Origin: Microbacterium sulfonylureivorans
Lineage (GTDB): Bacteria; Actinomycetota; Actinomycetes; Actinomycetales; Microbacteriaceae
Length of the DNA: 64,000 nt
Reading direction: 5' to 3'
Assembly (NCBI RefSeq): GCF_003999995.1
Contig: NZ_RJAD01000003.1
Location: 62,001 to 126,000, forward strand
Part shown: piece after piece, positions 53,413-61,713 of the stretch
Position numbering within the stretch: the stretch's first letter is position 1
How the letters are laid out: every line of letters begins with the position of its first letter
Position numbers and translations under genes: made by a program
The notes under the pieces: generated by a model
Seen by the model: the letters and a program-made list of their open reading frames with translations, nothing else
What the model was told of the DNA's origin: nothing
Databases searched by the model: none

Positions 53413-54138
53413 CTAGCGCGTGATGTCGCGCACGGTGCCGCGCTCGAGGCGCAGGCGCCGCCGTGCCCGCTTCGCCACCGCAGAGTCGTGCGTGACCACG
53501 ATGAGCGTCAGCCCCTCGGCGCACAGTGCCTCGAGCACGGCGAGGATCTCGTCGCGCATGCTCTCGTCGAGGTTGCCCGTGGGCTCGTCGGCGAGGAGCA
53601 CGCGCGGCCGCTTGACGATCGCGCGGGCGATCGCGACGCGCTGCTGCTGACCGCCGGAGAGCTCGCCGGGGCGGTGGTCGCCGCGGTCATCGAGCCCGAC
53701 GTGCGCGAGCGCCTCGGCGACGCGCACCGTGCGCTCCTCCTTCGGCAGGCCGAGCGGCTCCAGCGCCATGTCGACGTTCTCCGCCGCCGTGAGCGTCGGG
53801 ATGAGGTTGAATCCCTGGAACACGAACCCGATCTCGCGGGCGCGCACCCGGCCCAGCTCGGCGTTCGAGGCCTCGGCCAGATCGATCTCGCCGAGGCGGA
53901 CGCTCCCCGTGGTGGGCCGGTCGAGCGCTCCCAGCAGCTGCAGGAGCGTGGACTTGCCGCCGCCGGTCGGTCCCTGGATGGTCACGAAGTCGCCCTGCGA
54001 GATGTCGAGGTCGACGCCGGCGAGCGCCTTCACGACGCGGTCCTTCTGACGGTAGGTGCGGGTGACGCCTGCCAGTCGGTACAGCGCGGGGGGCGCGGCA
54101 TCCGTCTGCGTCGTCGCCTCGGGGTCGAGCATGGTCAT
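53413..54138 (-). CDS. ABC transporter ATP-binding protein (MacB/LolD type)
   Basis: A 241-residue ATPase with Walker A QGPTGGGKST (56-63), Q-loop VFQGFNLIPTL, signature LSGGQQQRVAIARAI and Walker B VLLADEPTGNLDE, then the H-loop VVTHD. This matches the MacB/LolD (3.A.1.125/122) class that drives mechanotransmission by FtsX-type permeases rather than classic transport. I chose ATG 54138, preceded by AGGAGA at 7 nt; ATG 54201 would add 21 residues. It is the partner of the permease upstream (54210). The divergent two-component system 1.7 kb away probably controls both. Confidence 0.92.
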   Translation of the reverse strand: MTMLDPEATTQTDAAPPALYRLAGVTRTYRQKDRVVKALAGVDLDISQGDFVTIQGPTGGGKSTLLQLLGALDRPTTGSVRLGEIDLAEASNAELGRVRAREIGFVFQGFNLIPTLTAAENVDMALEPLGLPKEERTVRVAEALAHVGLDDRGDHRPGELSGGQQQRVAIARAIVKRPRVLLADEPTGNLDESMRDEILAVLEALCAEGLTLIVVTHDSAVAKRARRRLRLERGTVRDITR

Positions 54139-54209
54139 CGTCGGTTCTCCTGTCGTGTGCGGGTCGATGGTCGCGTCTGCGGGTGCGGTGGAGTCGGTCA
54201 TGGGATGCC

Positions 54210-55670
54210 TCACGAGACCGATCGCAGTGCTTCGGCAGGACTCAGCCGCGCGGCACGCCATCCGCCGAACGCTCCGGCGACGAGTCCGCCCAAGAGGGCG
54301 AGGCCGAGCGCCGCCACGACGACCCACAGTGTGACGGGGGCGTGGAGCACGATCTCCGTCGCCCCCTGCTGGAGGGTGTTCGCGAAGCCGCCGCCGGGGC
54401 CGCCCATGTTCTCTCCTCCGGGGCCGCCCTGCGTGACCGGCCCGGTCGACGGCGCGGTCGAGATGGTCGGCGACACGAGGTTGATCGCCCAGATGCCGAG
54501 GAACCCGATCACGAGCCCCGCGGCGCCGCCGAGGAGTCCCTGCACCACGGACTCCCCCGCGACCTGGCCGACGACGCGGCCGTTGGACCAGCCGATGGCC
54601 TTGAGCGTGCCGAACTCCCGGGTGCGGCGCGAGACGCCGGAGATGGTGAACAGCACGGCGAGGGCGAGCGCGACGGCGAGCACGATGATCGACAGCCACG
54701 TGCCGAGGTTCGTGATGAGCGACGACGCACTCGAGAGCGATCCGGAGACGTTCGCGGCGAGGTCGGACTGCGAGCTGACGGTCGCGTCGGGCAGCGCCTC
54801 CTGCAGGTCCTCCTGCACGGCGGTGATCGCGTCGGACGAATCGGCCTGCACATACACCGTCGACACCACGTCGCCGGTACCGGCGAGCGTCTGCGCGACG
54901 TCGAGGGGGATGTACACGTTCGCCGCCGTGTCGGCCTCGCTCGACGTGGAGGCGACGATGCCGACGACCTCGAACTCCTCCCCGCCGACGTCGATGGCGT
55001 CGCCGACGGCGACCTCCGCGGTCGAGGCGTATGCGGCGTCGAGCACGGCGACGTTCTCGCCCTCGTCGCCGGATGCGAGCGCCCGCCCGTCGCTGAGGCT
55101 CACGGCCGACATCGGGCCCACCTCCGACTCGGCCGGCTCGATGCCGAGCACGGTGAACGAGTCGACGTCGAACGAGCCGCCGCCGAATCCTCCACCGCCG
55201 CCGTCCTGAGGCGGCGCCTGACCGGTGGTGCCCGACTCGGTCGGGGGCGGCGGCAGCTCGCCCGAGAACGTCATGTTCGTGAGGCTGAGTGCGCCGGATG
55301 CCGCGGCCACCCCGTCCACACCGGACACGGTGTCGAGCACGCTCGCCTCGAGGGTCGCGCGCATCGGCTCCGAGACGAGCCGGGACTGGCTGAGCTCGGT
55401 GGTGCCGTCGTCGGCGGTCTCGCCGCCGTCCTCGCCGAACTCGAACGCCTGGCCGCGACCTGCTCCAGGCTCGGCCATCGCGCCGGTGACCGTGAGGTCG
55501 GTGCCGACGCCGTAGACCGACTCGAGCGCCTGTGCCTGAGCGTCGCGCACGCCGGCGGCGAGCGAGTTGACGATCATCACGAGCGCGATGGCGATCGCGA
55601 GTCCGGTCGCGACGATGATCGTCTGCTTCTTGCGGCCGGCCAGTTCCCGCCGCAGATACGTTCCGTACAT
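54210..55670 (-). CDS. FtsX/MacB-type ABC permease
   Basis: A 486-residue permease with the MacB topology: an N-terminal helix (about 16-38), a large extracytoplasmic domain (about 40-325), then three more helices (about 330-355, 375-405 and 450-470). The large domain has a Gly-rich insert (GGGGGFGGG, about 155-165) and a second Gly/Pro-rich loop (GGPGGENMGGPGGG) is found between later helices. GVSRRTREFGTLKAIGWSNGRVVGQVAGES is the conserved coupling region. Good GGAGGAG site before the ATG. It likely exports or releases an envelope compound; the substrate is unknown. Confidence 0.9.
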   Translation of the reverse strand: MYGTYLRRELAGRKKQTIIVATGLAIAIALVMIVNSLAAGVRDAQAQALESVYGVGTDLTVTGAMAEPGAGRGQAFEFGEDGGETADDGTTELSQSRLVSEPMRATLEASVLDTVSGVDGVAAASGALSLTNMTFSGELPPPPTESGTTGQAPPQDGGGGGFGGGSFDVDSFTVLGIEPAESEVGPMSAVSLSDGRALASGDEGENVAVLDAAYASTAEVAVGDAIDVGGEEFEVVGIVASTSSEADTAANVYIPLDVAQTLAGTGDVVSTVYVQADSSDAITAVQEDLQEALPDATVSSQSDLAANVSGSLSSASSLITNLGTWLSIIVLAVALALAVLFTISGVSRRTREFGTLKAIGWSNGRVVGQVAGESVVQGLLGGAAGLVIGFLGIWAINLVSPTISTAPSTGPVTQGGPGGENMGGPGGGFANTLQQGATEIVLHAPVTLWVVVAALGLALLGGLVAGAFGGWRAARLSPAEALRSVS

Positions 55671-55749
55671 GGGTCTCCTCCCGGCAGGCGAGGTGCCGGC
55701 CGTCGAGAGCGAAGCTAGGGACCGCGTCGATGCAGAACTCCAGCGGAGG

Positions 55750-55820
55750 CTATGAACCGGTTATGTGCGCGCTTCCGCACTCACAGCATCCGCATAGCGC
55801 TCGCCATAGGAAGCACATAG
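55750..55820. promoter_or_regulatory. CTATG repeat operators between ABC exporter and its two-component system
   Basis: On the plus strand CTATG (55750-55754) and TTATG (55761-55765) are 11 bp apart. On the minus strand the same word, read as CATAG on plus, occurs at 55793, 55805 and 55816 (periods 12 and 11). An 11-bp period of direct half-sites is the hallmark of OmpR-family dimers. The inner set overlaps the region 20-35 bp upstream of the regulator's start; CACAAT (55830-55835) is a likely -10 box. Confidence 0.6.
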
Positions 55821-55841
55821 GAACGCGAGCACAATGGACCC

Positions 55842-56570
55842 ATGACCAACGCCACGCCCGCACTCCTGCGTCCCGACGGCTCGCCCCTGCGCGTGCTCGT
55901 CGTCGATGACGAGCAGATGCTCACCGACCTCCTGTCGATGGCCCTGCGCATGGAGGGGTGGGAGGTGCGCACCGCAGGCTCGGGCTTCCAGGCGCTCCAG
56001 GCGGCCCGCGAGTTCTCGCCCGACGCCATGGTGCTCGACGTCATGATGCCCGACCTCGACGGCATGGCCGTGCTGCAGCGCCTGCGCCAGTCGGGCGACG
56101 ACGTGCCGGTGCTCTTCCTGACCGCGAAGGACGCCGTGAGCGACCGGGTCGCGGGTCTCACCGCCGGCGGCGACGACTACGTCACGAAGCCGTTCTCACT
56201 CGAAGAGGTCGTGGCGCGCCTGCGCGGCCTCATGCGCCGCGCGGGAACGGCGCACGCGTCGGGCGCGGAGCCGATCCTCCGCGTCGCCGACCTCACCCTC
56301 AACGAGGACAGCCACGAGGTCGAGCGGGCCGGCGCCGAGATCGAGCTGACCGCGACCGAGTTCGAGCTGCTGCGCTACCTCATGCGCAACCAGCGCCGGG
56401 TCGTCTCGAAGGCGCAGATCCTCGACCGCGTCTGGAACTACGACTTCGGCGGACGCTCCAGCGTCGTCGAGCTGTACATTTCCTACCTCCGCAAGAAGAT
56501 CGACCACGGCCGCGATCCCCTCATCCACACGGTGCGCGGCGTCGGCTACATGATCAAGGCCCCGCAATGA
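55842..56570 (+). CDS. Response regulator, OmpR/PhoB family
   Basis: A 242-residue regulator. The receiver domain has LVVDDEQM, phosphoacceptor Asp66 in MVLDVMMPD and Lys in VTKPFS; the winged helix has ELTATEFELLRYLMRNQRRVVSKAQIL and VVELYISYLRKKID. An extra 14-residue N-terminus precedes the receiver core. The ATG is probably leaderless (CACAAT 6 nt upstream). It is coupled to the following kinase by ATGA. The adjacent CTATG repeats are its likely sites, so it probably regulates itself and the divergent ABC exporter. Confidence 0.93.
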   Translation: MTNATPALLRPDGSPLRVLVVDDEQMLTDLLSMALRMEGWEVRTAGSGFQALQAAREFSPDAMVLDVMMPDLDGMAVLQRLRQSGDDVPVLFLTAKDAVSDRVAGLTAGGDDYVTKPFSLEEVVARLRGLMRRAGTAHASGAEPILRVADLTLNEDSHEVERAGAEIELTATEFELLRYLMRNQRRVVSKAQILDRVWNYDFGGRSSVVELYISYLRKKIDHGRDPLIHTVRGVGYMIKAPQ

Positions 56571-58147
56571 CCGACGCCCGAACCGAGAACCCGGCGGATG
56601 CCGCGGCCGCTCCCCCGGCGCGGGACGAGGCATCCCGTCGTCGGCCCTGGACGCTGCAGAACAAGCTCATCGTCACCGTCGTCGCGATCACGTCGCTGAT
56701 CATGGTGCTCGTCGGAGTGACGACGAGCGCGATCCTCGGGACCGTCCTCGAGGACAGCCTGACGAACCAGGTGAAGAGCTCGGCCCAGCGCACGGCGGCG
56801 ATGGTGCGCCAGCCGGTGGCGTCGGGGATGACGGCGGAGCAGATCCTCAATCAGATGCCCCAGCAGCCCGGCTTCCTCCTCGCCGTGCAGGCACCGCTCG
56901 GAGAGCCGACCGCGGCCTACGTCGACTCCGACGGTGCGGTCGTGGCGCTCACGACCGACCAGATCACCCAGCTCGTGGACGGCCTCCGCAGCGATACGCC
57001 GTTCGTCGTCACGATCGACGAGGTCGGGACCTTCCGGGTGGACGGCGAGTCGGGCGTCGTGGTCGGAATCTCCCGCGATCAGGTGGCCGTCAACATCGGG
57101 CGGATGCTCACGACGATCGGCCTGCTGACGCTCGGTGGCCTCATCCTCCTCGCCCTGGCCACCGCGTGGACGATCCGGGCCGGCCTCGCGCCGCTGCGCG
57201 CCGTCGCCGACACGGCCGAGCGCGTCTCGAGGATCCCGCTCGACCAGGGCGAGGTCTCGATCCCCGAGCGCGTTCCCGCGCGACAGGCCGATCCCCGCAC
57301 CGAGGTCGGCCGAGTCGGCGAGGCGCTCAACACGCTCCTCGACCACGTCGGCACGTCGCTGACCGCGCGTCAGCGCAACGAGGAGCGCATGCGCACCTTC
57401 GTGGCCGATGCCAGCCACGAGCTGCGGACGCCGCTCGCGTCCATCCGCGGCTACTCGGAGCTGTCCCTGCGCGCCCTCTCGAAGGACCACCGCGCCGCCA
57501 CGATCGAGACGACCGAGGCGTCCCTCGAGCGCATCCAGGCGCAGTCGCTGCGCATGACGACGCTCGTCGAGGACCTGCTGCTGCTCGCCCGGCTGGACGA
57601 GGGGCAGGAGCTCGTCTACGGCACGGTCGACCTGACCCGCCTCGCGATCGAGGCCGTCGGCGACGCCCGACCGGCGGGGCCCGACCACCAGTGGGTCATG
57701 GACCTCCCCGACGCCCCGGTGCAGATCGCCGGCGACACCGGCCGCCTGCACCAGGTCGCCGCCAACCTGCTCGCGAACGCGCGCACGCACACGCCCGCCG
57801 GCACGACGGTCACGGTGACGGTCGAACGGGATGCCGACACCGCCGTCCTGCGCGTCCACGACGACGGCCCCGGCATAGAGCCGACGCTGCGCGACGAGCT
57901 CTTCGAGCGGTTCTCGCGCGCCGACCGGTCGCGCGCCCGCCAGACGGGCGGCACCGGGCTCGGCCTCTCCATCGCCCGAGCGATCGTCGACGCGCACGGC
58001 GGCACGATCTCGGTCGAGAGCGTTCCCGGGGACACGACCTTCGAGGTGCGTCTTCCCGCCAGACCTCTCGACCCGGCCGACAGCGCCGTCTCCGAGGAGC
58101 CGACGATGGACGCTCCCGCCGACGAGGACCAGCCCGTCACGCCCTAG
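56567..58147 (+). CDS. Sensor histidine kinase of the exporter-linked system
   Basis: A 526-residue kinase. A cytoplasmic N-terminus (1-30), first transmembrane helix (about 33-57), extracytoplasmic sensor domain (about 58-175), second helix (about 182-203) and HAMP are followed by HisKA with His284 in VADASHELRTPLASI. The ATPase domain has an N box (QVAANLLANARTHT), a G1 box (HDDGPGI) and a G2 box (GGTGLGLSIARAI). A Pro/Glu-rich tail ends it. It starts at the ATG overlapping the regulator stop. The input may be an envelope stress exported by the neighbouring ABC system. Confidence 0.92.
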   Translation: MTDARTENPADAAAAPPARDEASRRRPWTLQNKLIVTVVAITSLIMVLVGVTTSAILGTVLEDSLTNQVKSSAQRTAAMVRQPVASGMTAEQILNQMPQQPGFLLAVQAPLGEPTAAYVDSDGAVVALTTDQITQLVDGLRSDTPFVVTIDEVGTFRVDGESGVVVGISRDQVAVNIGRMLTTIGLLTLGGLILLALATAWTIRAGLAPLRAVADTAERVSRIPLDQGEVSIPERVPARQADPRTEVGRVGEALNTLLDHVGTSLTARQRNEERMRTFVADASHELRTPLASIRGYSELSLRALSKDHRAATIETTEASLERIQAQSLRMTTLVEDLLLLARLDEGQELVYGTVDLTRLAIEAVGDARPAGPDHQWVMDLPDAPVQIAGDTGRLHQVAANLLANARTHTPAGTTVTVTVERDADTAVLRVHDDGPGIEPTLRDELFERFSRADRSRARQTGGTGLGLSIARAIVDAHGGTISVESVPGDTTFEVRLPARPLDPADSAVSEEPTMDAPADEDQPVTP

Positions 58148-58206: not shown

Positions 58207-59778
58207 TCAGTAGCCGCTGAAGGCGTCGGTGGTGATCGACCGGGCCTTCTCGAGCGCCGGCGCGAGGTCGGCGATGAGTCCGGCCGGACCGGAGATGTAC
58301 GCGTGGCGTGCCGCGATGTCGGGCACGACGGTCACGAGACCCTCCGCGTCGAGCCGCACACCGCGCGCCCAGAGCCAGTTCGCAGGCAGATCGGCCGGCC
58401 GGTCGCGCGTGAACACGACGACCGATATCCCGGCTGCCTCGAGATCGGCGCGGTACGCGAGCTCGGACGCGTCCGAGGCGACGTAGACGAGCACGATGTC
58501 GCGCTCCTCGCCCGCCGCACGCATGTGCCGGATCTGCGAGACGAACGGCGTCACGCCGATGCCCGCCGCGACCATGAGGATCGGGGCGCCGTCGCGCTTG
58601 GGAAGGACGAAGTCGCCCCACACGCCGGTGATCGCCAGCCGCTCCCCCGGCGCCACCCGGGCGAGCGCCTTCTTGTACGAGGACTGCGGCTTCGCCGACG
58701 CGGCCGAGCTCTCCTTGAAGGCGACGCGAAGGAGAGGAAGGTCTTCGGGCGCGGAGGCGATGCTGAATTCGCGGCGCGTGCCGCGGGCGTCGGGGTGCGC
58801 GTGCGGCACCTCGAGCTCGAGGTACTGGCCGGGGACGAACGACAGCCGGTCGTGCACGCGGAACGTCAGCTCCTGCACGGTCGGCGTGCGCTCGGCTCGG
58901 GAATCGAGGGTGAGCCGCACCGCGGTGCGGACCGCGAACGCGAAGGCGACCGCGTTGCCGATCAGCAGGGCGCGCTCCTGCCCGAGCGAGATGTCGCCGA
59001 GCGGGATCGGCCATCCGGCCAGCACGCCGACGATCGCGGCCACCGTGAACTGCTGCCAGCGACGCGGTGGGAGCGTGAGCGGCTCGGACAGCATGAACGC
59101 GCCGAGGAACAGGAACGGCGACGACCACAGGATCTGCCAGAACACGGTCATCGAGTCGACGACGGCTCCGGCCGCCTGCAGCTGCGCGGCGGTGCGGAGC
59201 ACCGCGATCGCGACCGCGATCACGAGGAACACCGCCACCACGCGGATCTTCTCGGTGCGCCACAGCACGGCGAGGCCGAGCACGACGACGGGCAGCGCGA
59301 GCGCCTGCGTGCCGACCCACCACGACGACGCTCCGAGTGCCGGCCACGCGATGCTCAGGAGGGTGAGAACGGTCGCTCCGACGGCGGCCGGGTTGAAGAT
59401 GTGGCGCCCTCGCCACGCGAGGAGGTACTTCGAGAGGGAGGCCGCGGCCGCCGCGATCGCGATGCCGCCGAGCGCGGCGACATCGAGCGTCGGGCGCAGC
59501 ACGAAGAGCAGGATGTGCGCGGTGATCAGCGACGACTCGAGGCGCCAGGGCAGGTGCAGGACGCGCTGGGCCGCGGCATCCACTCCCACGCAGACGGCGG
59601 AGAGGACGGCGAGCGTCGCGATCAGCTCGAGAGGAGAGGGCCCGACCAGATCGAAGAACGACAGCACGAGCGACGTGACGGCGAGGGCTGCCAGGGCGAG
59701 GTAGACGACGCGGTACATCGAGACGCGCCCCAGGAGGGCGAAGACGCGGTTCCAGACCGCGGTGACGGATCCGAGCAC
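58207..59778 (-). CDS. NqrB/RnfD-like membrane protein fused to a ferredoxin-NAD(P)+ reductase-like module
   Basis: A 523-residue fusion. The N-terminal 300 residues have about eight to nine hydrophobic helices with RGRHIFNPAAVGATVLTLL (about 123-140), a pattern of RnfD/NqrB subunits. The C-terminal part is an FNR module: FAD motif TRREFSIAS (about 345), a glycine-rich nucleotide loop MVAAGIGVTPFVSQIRH (about 405), and YISGPAGLIADLAPAL near the end. There is no Fe-S cluster. NAD(P)H electrons could go through FAD into the membrane domain. GTG is one nt after the MOSC stop. Fourth gene of a flavinylation operon. Confidence 0.8.
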   Translation of the reverse strand: MLGSVTAVWNRVFALLGRVSMYRVVYLALAALAVTSLVLSFFDLVGPSPLELIATLAVLSAVCVGVDAAAQRVLHLPWRLESSLITAHILLFVLRPTLDVAALGGIAIAAAAASLSKYLLAWRGRHIFNPAAVGATVLTLLSIAWPALGASSWWVGTQALALPVVVLGLAVLWRTEKIRVVAVFLVIAVAIAVLRTAAQLQAAGAVVDSMTVFWQILWSSPFLFLGAFMLSEPLTLPPRRWQQFTVAAIVGVLAGWPIPLGDISLGQERALLIGNAVAFAFAVRTAVRLTLDSRAERTPTVQELTFRVHDRLSFVPGQYLELEVPHAHPDARGTRREFSIASAPEDLPLLRVAFKESSAASAKPQSSYKKALARVAPGERLAITGVWGDFVLPKRDGAPILMVAAGIGVTPFVSQIRHMRAAGEERDIVLVYVASDASELAYRADLEAAGISVVVFTRDRPADLPANWLWARGVRLDAEGLVTVVPDIAARHAYISGPAGLIADLAPALEKARSITTDAFSGY

Positions 59779-59779
59779 G

Positions 59780-60337
59780 TCACACCGCCTGGAGGGGCTC
59801 GTGGGCGCCTGCGGGCGGCACGATGCGGATGCCGTCGCCCGGCCGCACCTCTCCTCCGGTGAGCACGATCGACATGACGCCGGCCAAGCGCACGGTGGCT
59901 CCCCCGTCGTCGACGTACACGAGCTCCTTCATCAGCCCCTCCGACAGTCCGTTGATCTGGGTGCAGGGATTGCGGAGCCCCGTGAGCTCGACGACGGCCT
60001 CGTCGCCGATCTCGAGCCGCGTCCCGCGCGGAAGGCCGAGCAGGTCGACCCCCGACGTGGTGATGTTCTCGCCCATCGCCCCCGGATCGATCCGGTGGCC
60101 GCGCTCGTCCATCTCGGCGAACAGCTCGGCGTGGATGAGATGCACCTGCCGCAGGTTGGGCGTCGACGGATCGCGCCGCACGCGGGAGAGGTGCTGCACC
60201 GTCGCCCCGGCGTGCGCATCGCCCTCGACGCCGAAGCCGGCGATCAGGGTGATGGCCTCGCGCGTGGGCTTGCTGAAGCGGTGCGCGTCGTCGCGGGCGA
60301 CGGCGACGACCTGTCCGAGGGGAAGCGAGTCGGTCAC
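59780..60337 (-). CDS. MOSC-domain protein
   Basis: A 185-residue single-domain MOSC protein. The conserved region includes EGDAHAGATVQHLSR (about 37-52), GAMGENITTSGVDLL (about 87-100) and GLRNPCTQINGLSEGL with the Cys (about 124) that can carry a persulfide. MOSC proteins handle sulfur for molybdenum cofactor, or detoxify with YiiM-like reductases. The GTG start overlaps the apbE stop (GTGA). Its place in a flavin operon is unusual; a sulfur-relay or reductase-partner role is inference. Confidence 0.82.
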   Translation of the reverse strand: MTDSLPLGQVVAVARDDAHRFSKPTREAITLIAGFGVEGDAHAGATVQHLSRVRRDPSTPNLRQVHLIHAELFAEMDERGHRIDPGAMGENITTSGVDLLGLPRGTRLEIGDEAVVELTGLRNPCTQINGLSEGLMKELVYVDDGGATVRLAGVMSIVLTGGEVRPGDGIRIVPPAGAHEPLQAV

Positions 60338-61239
60338 CTCTCCACGCTAGCCTCTCGGCGGAAGAGGTCGGCGCGGCAGCCGGGCGACCAGTCCACGCGG
60401 CCGTCGGTGGTCATCCGCACCCACTCGACGCCCCAGTCGTGCGCGAGGCGCGGTCCCCCGTCGAAGAAGAGCGCCGTGGCGATGGCGTCTGCGCGCATCG
60501 CGGTGGGCGCCACCGCCCAGGTCGCTGCGACGGTGTGCACCGGAACGCCTGTCCGGGCGTCGAGCACGTGATGCAGGCCGTCGCCCCACGCGCGCCGGTT
60601 CACCGCCGACGCGCAGAGTGCGGCATCCGTCACCTCCCAGACGCCGATCGCGCGGCGCGCATCGAACGGATGCTCCAGCCCGATCCGCTGCGGAGCGCCG
60701 CGCACGGCCATGTCGCCCCCGGCGTCGACGACGAAGCCGCCCGGGGAGGCGAGCGCCACCACGTCGGCCACGAGGTCGACGAGCCGGCCCTTTCCCAGCG
60801 CGCCCACGTCGATCGTCGCGGGGCGGTCGAGGGCGAGGATCCCGTCGTGCCACGTCAGTGCGCGTACCCAATCCGCAGGCGCCGCGACGGGCACGCCGGC
60901 GGTGAGCGAGTAGCCCGCGTCGTAGCCCAGGCGCTCGAGGGATGCCCCGATCAGCGGGTTGACGGCGCCGCCCGTGGCATCGGACAGCTCGACGAACGCG
61001 TCGAGCATCGCTGCGGCGTCGGGCGGCGCGGGCACGGCCCCTCCTGCGGACGCGAGCGACCCGACGAGCGAATCGGCGCGGAATCGCGACCAGGCCGCGT
61101 CGAAGTCGTCGATCACGGCCGCGACCCGCTGCCGCGTCTTCTCACCGAGCGGTGCGTCCGCCACGATCTCCCACGCCGTGCCGATCGCGTCGAATCGCCA
61201 CGTGTCGCCGGTGGACTGCGCCGGCACCGGGCGGGACAT
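60334..61239 (-). CDS. apbE: FAD:protein FMN transferase (ApbE)
   Basis: A 301-residue ApbE. The blocks are GTAWEIVADAPLG, FDAAWSRFRADSLVGSLA, GAVNPLIGASLERLGYD, the Mg2+/FAD-binding IDVGALGKGRLVDLVADVV (about 142-160), GFVVDAGGDMAVRG and HHVLDARTGVPV. ApbE links FMN covalently to Ser/Thr of FMN_bind or NqrB/RnfG proteins, usually outside the membrane, but no signal peptide or lipobox is apparent at this N-terminus. It lies 3 nt downstream of the FMN-binding lipoprotein, its likely substrate, and its stop overlaps the MOSC start. Confidence 0.92.
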   Translation of the reverse strand: MSRPVPAQSTGDTWRFDAIGTAWEIVADAPLGEKTRQRVAAVIDDFDAAWSRFRADSLVGSLASAGGAVPAPPDAAAMLDAFVELSDATGGAVNPLIGASLERLGYDAGYSLTAGVPVAAPADWVRALTWHDGILALDRPATIDVGALGKGRLVDLVADVVALASPGGFVVDAGGDMAVRGAPQRIGLEHPFDARRAIGVWEVTDAALCASAVNRRAWGDGLHHVLDARTGVPVHTVAATWAVAPTAMRADAIATALFFDGGPRLAHDWGVEWVRMTTDGRVDWSPGCRADLFRREASVER

Positions 61240-61242
61240 CGC

Positions 61243-61713
61243 TCAGAGGGCCGCTTCGGCCTTGATCGCGTCGATCGCCTGGTTGAAGCCGCTGCTCGTC
61301 AGGGACGATCCGGCGACGCGGCTGACGGAGATCTCGTCGATGTCCTCGCCGACGACGACATCGGAGATGCCGCCGATGAACTGGCCCTGGTATTGCTCGG
61401 ACTCGGCCTTCTGCGGATCGCCGACGACCTCGACCGCCGTGATGACGTCGCTGTCGAGCGTGACGGTGACCGAGATCGTCTCGACCGTCTCGGGCGTCGA
61501 GTACGAGCCCTCGGCGGTGTAGGTGCCGTCGGCGTAGGTCGCGGCGCCGCCGGTGTCGGTGCCGGTCGTCCCGGCGTCCGAACGCGTGTCGGTCGAGGCG
61601 TCGTCGGCGGCCGGGGAGCATCCGGCGAGCAGGACGATGCCTGCGACCGCGGCGACGGTCGCGCCGGCGCGGAGAGAGCGAGCGGGACGTGTGGCGACGG
61701 CGGTGCGGATCAT
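61243..61713 (-). CDS. FMN-binding domain lipoprotein
   Basis: A 156-residue lipoprotein: signal sequence with lipobox LLAGC (Cys at about 32), a Ser/Thr/Asp linker (about 33-57) and one FMN_bind domain (about 58-156) beginning YADGTYTAEGSYSTP. The flavin-attachment site, usually S/T-G-A-T, corresponds to VAGSSLTS near 137-144, where Ser takes the place of Thr. ApbE next door would attach FMN there. It would then carry electrons at the outer membrane face. AGGAGG lies 6 nt before ATG. It is the first gene of the operon. Confidence 0.85.
   Translation of the reverse strand: MIRTAVATRPARSLRAGATVAAVAGIVLLAGCSPAADDASTDTRSDAGTTGTDTGGAATYADGTYTAEGSYSTPETVETISVTVTLDSDVITAVEVVGDPQKAESEQYQGQFIGGISDVVVGEDIDEISVSRVAGSSLTSSGFNQAIDAIKAEAAL

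Follow-up and report, generated by a model that had tools for sequence, protein, structure and literature searches.

Gene organisation of the locus

The window analysed here is a 64 kb stretch of Microbacterium sulfonylureivorans DNA, lying on contig C3 in a genome of 3.79 Mb (99.99% complete), and carries on its minus strand (61713-58207) a compact operon of four open reading frames (ORFs). Genes for a lipoprotein with a predicted FMN_bind fold, an ApbE flavin transferase, a MOSC-domain protein and a membrane-reductase fusion follow one another with 3 bp of spacing, a 4 bp overlap and 1 bp of spacing (Table 1), in agreement with the tight same-strand packing described in an earlier note on this DNA. 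The core of the operon, formed by lipoprotein, ApbE and fusion, belongs to the already described NQR/RNF-like class of electron-transfer systems and is not itself new.

As worded in the survey that defined it, this class comprises fusions of an NqrB/RnfD-like domain with a PF00175 domain encoded no more than five genes from ApbE or FMN_bind (Méheust 2021, PMC8238504). In the window, a single protein combines an N-terminal NqrB/RnfD domain (Pfam accession: PF03116) with a C-terminal PF00175 domain, and lies near ApbE and a target with a lipobox, provided that the lipoprotein, which the Pfam model misses, is counted as FMN_bind by its fold.

Table 1. Features of the operon (window positions)
Feature	Position	Strand	Remarks
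FMN_bind-fold lipoprotein, 156 aa	61243..61713	-	Signal peptide; lipobox LAGC at Cys32; motif SRVAGSSLTS; predicted flavin mononucleotide (FMN) site Ser137
ApbE flavin transferase, 301 aa	60334..61239	-	PF02424, 127.7 bits; without signal peptide
MOSC-domain protein, 185 aa, GTG start	59780..60337	-	PF03473, 55.1 bits; invariant MOSC Cys = Cys125; optional member
Membrane-reductase fusion	58207..59778	-	NqrB/RnfD-like domain (about 1-281) and FAD/NAD(P)H reductase (about 285-523)

The membrane-reductase fusion and its probable electron route

Structure prediction of the fusion, as suggested in the earlier note, yields models with RnfD/NqrB and FNR/NqrF folds, in line with the NQR/RNF-like class. 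Sequence conservation was assessed in an alignment of 113 distinct rows, from which fusions of other genera below 400 bits, locus L069 and identical rows were omitted. R335 and R336 are present in all 113, F338 in 111 and S339 in 106 (RxFS), while G406, G408, T410, P411 and G497 are each present in 113 (GxGxTP) and a C-terminal Tyr in 111; we take these to be the motifs binding flavin adenine dinucleotide (FAD) and NAD(P). Conserved Cys residues are absent from the alignment and only two His are conserved at 70% or more, which speaks against an electron path through Fe-S centres or a bis-haem pair. The pattern D..[ST]GA[ST] occurs in none of the 113 membrane domains, in keeping with the covalent site reported as lost in this class and lending no support to the earlier idea that ApbE flavinylates the NqrB-type protein as well.

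For the resulting system we infer the following cofactor loading and direction of flow: on the inner side, the FAD of the C-terminal FNR module would be reduced by NAD(P)H; from there electrons would cross the membrane via a flavin of the NqrB/RnfD-like domain, probably bound non-covalently as expected from the class; and the FMN that ApbE is predicted to attach to the lipoprotein would receive them outside and hand them to an extracytoplasmic acceptor. It is likely that lipoprotein, ApbE and fusion together form a minimal, one-way exporter of electrons that belongs to the NQR/RNF-like class. The route from NAD(P)H through the FNR module and membrane domain to a flavinylated lipoprotein, which the earlier note had proposed, is the best-supported reading, and two papers already give it for the class, from NAD(P)H through FAD and membrane flavin to an external FMN-lipoprotein, one-way and outward (PMC8238504, PMC10979944); Huang 2024, where the system was modelled, also remarks that the covalent flavin site is lost from the membrane subunit (PMC10979944).

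Candidate acceptors were sought among the neighbours of 45 loci, where ten gene clusters, each found in 6-17 loci, were annotated from one member each: Hsp20, thiamine-binding, GNAT, isocitrate dehydrogenase-like and ABC exporter types, together with a methyltransferase DNA-binding domain, subtilase, GT87, MFS and carbohydrate kinase-like proteins. The same outward route could serve an assimilatory ferric reductase, Fe(III) or ferric siderophores taking up the electrons for iron acquisition, and a VIT1 iron transporter is mentioned for six published NQR/RNF-like clusters in the defining survey (PMC8238504); this role is nonetheless unlikely, no iron transporter family being represented among the ten annotated neighbours or the six genes flanking the operon in the window, although the wider neighbourhood was not scanned exhaustively.

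A divergent tagging motif and a separate ApbE clade

The published target motif of ApbE is given as D-x-x-[S/T]-G-A-[S/T] in PMC12052999, and in its place the window lipoprotein has S-R-V-A-G-S-S. A fold model of this protein shows an FMN_bind fold; no Pfam FMN_bind match was obtained for it, and a search of the PDB with the lipoprotein profile returned weak matches only, the best being to the signal peptide of another lipoprotein. Among 107 called lipoprotein rows, in which some genomes are counted twice, a lipobox is found by pattern in 95 (some starts are truncated) and a Tat-type RRxφφ in none. The sequence G-S-S-L-T is present in 106 of the 107, preceded by Ala (95), Ser or Gly, and the odd row belongs to a paralogous system. 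At class level it recurs in 21 of 21 called lipoproteins. Fourteen of these come from beyond the family, where there are 15 loci (L139 yielded no lipoprotein). Judged by sequence, FMN is probably attached at Ser137 of VAGSSLTS.

In the window ApbE, S211, H224 and D251 of the PF02424 domain are invariant across 23 aligned ApbEs and correspond to the published catalytic triad in a profile alignment with solved ApbEs. A tree was built from 49 selected ApbE rows (28 GSS-type, 12 of 29 GAT-type, L147 and 8 query rows; three rows are long-branched), in which all 28 GSS-type rows fall together with three query rows (97/95), separate from the GAT type (99/95). The lipoprotein of G016 adjoins the fusion with no ApbE between them (L071), and its genus, g17, was searched because of this operon without ApbE. 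GSS-group ApbEs were recovered in three genomes (361-375 bits, against 44-56 bits with the other model), on another contig than the fusion in G016 and G159 and beside a second fusion in G097; motif and ApbE type thus go together even when unlinked. Locus L147 (G868 C59) encodes a full-length fusion with a canonical DTVSGAT motif, and its ApbE scores 137 bits with the GAT-type model against 59, a pairing from which it follows that GSSLT tracks the ApbE clade and not the fusion as such. L147 lies on a low-GC contig in an Actinomycetota genome and may be candidate-phylum contamination.

These data also bear on the possibility that GSS is a decayed flavinylation site and that FMN is either held by the lipoprotein without being attached by ApbE or not bound at all. 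The canonical D, [S/T] and A are all replaced in the window protein, which also escapes the Pfam FMN_bind model, but the replacement is near-invariant in rows from four families, which argues against decay, and GSS comes with an ApbE clade that has kept Ser, His and Asp, in G016 even from another contig; this alternative is improbable.

The genome of the window also holds a canonical pair. At about position 1832163 of G000 C1 (L001, 17-2561) an MsrQ-like membrane protein is encoded together with an FMN_bind protein carrying DMVSGATYTS; the ApbE found with them falls in the canonical group. A match to the ApbE of this MsrQ-like system is found in 29 of 99 Microbacterium genomes, with DM[V/I]SGAT[Y/V/F]TS in 23 of the 29 GAT-type loci and no motif match in called proteins of the remaining six.

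Cellular side of flavinylation

None of 114 GSS-type ApbEs, 105 of which have an upstream stop, shows a hydrophobic stretch of 15 residues ahead of the core, as far back as that stop or the end of the sequence; this count omits rows of other genera below 150 bits, rows without the start-of-core motif and identical rows. In the window, apbE is preceded by an in-frame stop two codons ahead of its ATG, and the N-terminal export signal that is usual, though not universal, is not visible. Among GAT-type ApbEs a hydrophobic stretch precedes the core in 4 of 28, in extensions that lie before the called start. EetB, the known FAD exporter (PF07456), had no match in any of 59 Microbacterium genomes.

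Cytosolic ApbE is on record for a soluble fumarate reductase, and in Listeria the external transferase is described as depending on FAD exported by EetB (PMC9973259). In the literature passages surveyed, figures and supplements aside, no description was found of a signal-less ApbE paired with an exported target. With no visible export signal on ApbE and no match to EetB, flavinylation inside the cell followed by export of the lipoprotein is plausible and would be the simplest reading, although ApbE may instead be exported without a classical signal, or a different FAD exporter may be in use. More specifically, we tentatively propose a distinct actinobacterial ApbE clade that would remain cytosolic, draw on the cell's own FAD, read V[A/S]GSSLTS and not DxxSGAT, and transfer FMN to the precursor Ser before Sec/lipoprotein export, orthogonally to the canonical pair that the cell also encodes. 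If ApbE does stay inside, extracytoplasmic flavoproteins would not need exported FAD here and Sec must pass a protein already bearing FMN; the changed motif and its own ApbE clade would together amount to a second specificity for ApbE flavin-tagging.

Distribution of the core

The fusion is present in 151 of 159 Microbacterium genomes, in 118 of 299 Microbacteriaceae genomes (spread over 39 of 85 genera) and in 24 of 345 genomes across the class, 15 of them outside Microbacteriaceae. For the other Microbacteriaceae genera with a match, one locus per genus was compared, giving a set of 38; because gene calling had been adjusted to the window, an initial pass over these loci missed some genes. 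Lipoprotein and fusion occur in 38 of the 38 and ApbE in 37, counts that include L069, with a frameshift, and L091, with its lipoprotein gene 2.4 kb off. A search for the four-gene order in other actinobacteria, as the earlier note had advised, thus recovers the three-gene core in 37 of these 38 loci and MOSC in none. In the rest of the phylum, 22 of 296 genomes have a match at E 1e-30, five to full-length fusions, among them L147 of G868, and 17 to the reductase part only.

The Méheust survey reports a total of 127 clusters in 127 genomes, mainly from Actinobacteria and the candidate phyla radiation (PMC8238504), a number exceeded by the single genus sampled here. At E 1e-3, PF04205 matches 12 of 28 lipoproteins and PF03116 matches 11 of 28 fusions. 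The published count is probably too low, because Pfam models miss many of these proteins and a signal-peptide filter cannot see this ApbE; grown genome collections contribute to the difference, yet thresholds matter too. This suggests that surveys based on Pfam models and signal peptides have missed many copies of a system present in nearly every Microbacterium sampled.

Three individual loci deserve mention. In G586 (L146), from the class-level set, the fusion gene has one internal TAA while the lipoprotein and ApbE frames are open, a possible pseudogene. An apparent ApbE-NqrB-FNR triple fusion in L069 (G009; 760 aa ORF) was rejected, its junction being out-of-frame and Arg/His-rich, and is taken as a frameshift. 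A Microbacterium-type four-gene operon with a 76% identical fusion lies on JASDDH010000013.1 (L019), labelled Planococcus sp. APC 4015, probably a mislabelled or contaminated assembly.

The MOSC gene as an optional passenger

The MOSC gene inserted between apbE and the fusion had been thought to set the operon apart; the gene is real, but its distribution is that of an optional member. Of 159 Microbacterium genomes, 27 have a homologue: it adjoins the fusion in 18 (out of the 151 fusion-bearing genomes) and lies elsewhere in 9, one of which (G164) gave no fusion match. The gene is present in 24 of 49 Microbacterium loci compared, some from the same species, and in none of the 38 loci of other genera. 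In L015/L115, L016, L017 and L026 parts of both MOSC ends remain around a deletion with the other three genes intact, scars that imply repeated loss, and on the fusion tree the MOSC label needs seven changes, six of them forced by supported branches. A role as core subunit was rejected on this distribution and the scars.

Absence from other genera, the tree changes and the deletion scars indicate that MOSC is a travelling, optional passenger, with its own cytosolic role that probably depends on molybdenum cofactor (Moco). It may be linked functionally to the reductase, but no such link is needed. Such a partnership would have the FNR module feed a Moco-bound cytosolic MOSC reductase, as cytochrome b5 reductase or CysJ does for mARC or YcbX, tying N-hydroxyl detoxification to the exporter. 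The position of the gene, the invariant MOSC Cys retained in 32 of 32 proteins and the occurrence of moaA in the same genome, in 26 of the 27 genomes with MOSC and in 109 of the 132 without it (Fisher p = 0.08), would fit, as would the general pairing of MOSC enzymes with electron-transfer proteins, the partner of YiiM not being known at the time of a 2018 paper (PMC5818509). The partnership is nevertheless doubtful to a degree that makes it a poor candidate: besides being absent from all other-genus loci and most Microbacterium sampled, and lost with the other three genes spared, the gene lies elsewhere in a third of its genomes (9 of 27), and in G395 a MOSC gene stands inside the operon of a genome with no moaA match.

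Weighing the electron-export reading

Several observations count against an ApbE-loaded electron exporter as set out above. The lipoprotein motif departs from the canonical one at three of five defined positions, Asp being kept in 18 of 106 rows, and flavinylation of the lipoprotein is for this reason not certain. ApbE is usually pictured as secreted, which sits poorly with an exported target whose ApbE has no signal. In the fusion, 95 of 113 rows have Thr or Ser at residue 157, within WWVGT, which leaves room for the membrane domain to carry a covalent site of non-canonical type. None of the ten annotated neighbour clusters is general or indicates an acceptor, no fusion match was found in 8 of the 159 Microbacterium genomes, and a promoter and terminator scan of the operon found nothing, albeit with a sigma-70 consensus that says little for a high-GC actinobacterium. 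Inward flow, with an external donor reducing the lipoprotein FMN and electrons reaching NAD(P)+ inside, is very improbable: FNR-type modules are reversible in principle, but the potential of NAD(P)H favours the outward direction, no gene cluster apart from the core is common to more than 17 of the 45 loci, no external oxidase is among those annotated, and flow is outward in the proposal as published.

Around the operon, a same-strand Hsp20 gene lies downstream of the fusion in L072 (8641-9093; cluster in 8 of 45 loci). In the window, a MacB/FtsX-type permease ABC transporter followed by a response regulator and histidine kinase (53413-58147) lies on the opposite strand and converges on the operon; clusters matching this ABC/two-component position and length are found in only 8 and 7 of the 45 loci, a set that includes seven from Microbacterium.

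Comparison with known systems

The earlier note had regarded the merger into one protein as distinguishing; this merger, like the small number of subunits, belongs to the definition of the published NQR/RNF-like class (PMC8238504, PMC10979944) and is not a novelty. The note's interpretation is partly supported, for the electron route, and finds no support here as regards ApbE flavinylation of the NqrB-type protein, while it overlooked the GSSLT motif, the ApbE without export signal and the canonical second system of the same genome. With the NQR/RNF-like system the operon shares the fusion, an NqrC/RnfG-like FMN_bind subunit, ApbE and a membrane domain without the canonical covalent site; it differs in that GSSLT replaces [S/T]GA[S/T], ApbE is signal-less and of a separate clade, the lipoprotein and membrane domain often escape Pfam models, and a MOSC gene is present in part of Microbacterium.

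The NqrB/RnfD fold, the NqrF-type reductase and the NqrC/RnfG-type FMN subunit are shared with the Na+-NQR and RNF complexes. In contrast to these, no NqrD/E or RnfA/E type subunit exceeds the cut-off in 59 Microbacterium genomes (PF02508 gave 0 of 59, with two weak sub-cut-off matches, neither in the window's own genome), and the fusion has neither conserved Fe-S Cys nor a canonical FMN motif in its membrane domain. The MsrQ-like actinobacterial flavinylation system likewise has a small exported FMN_bind protein adjoining ApbE, but with a ferric-reductase-like membrane protein, the canonical DMVSGATYTS motif and another ApbE clade. The extracellular electron transfer system of Listeria (PplA-FmnB-EetB) resembles the present one in having a surface lipoprotein with an ApbE-type transferase as flavinylating enzyme; there the transferase acts outside and needs FAD export via EetB-FmnA, whereas here ApbE shows no export signal and EetB had no match in the 59 genomes. 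Set beside these systems, what appears to be new, on the sequences compared, is the GSSLT tagging sequence and an ApbE seemingly kept inside the cell.

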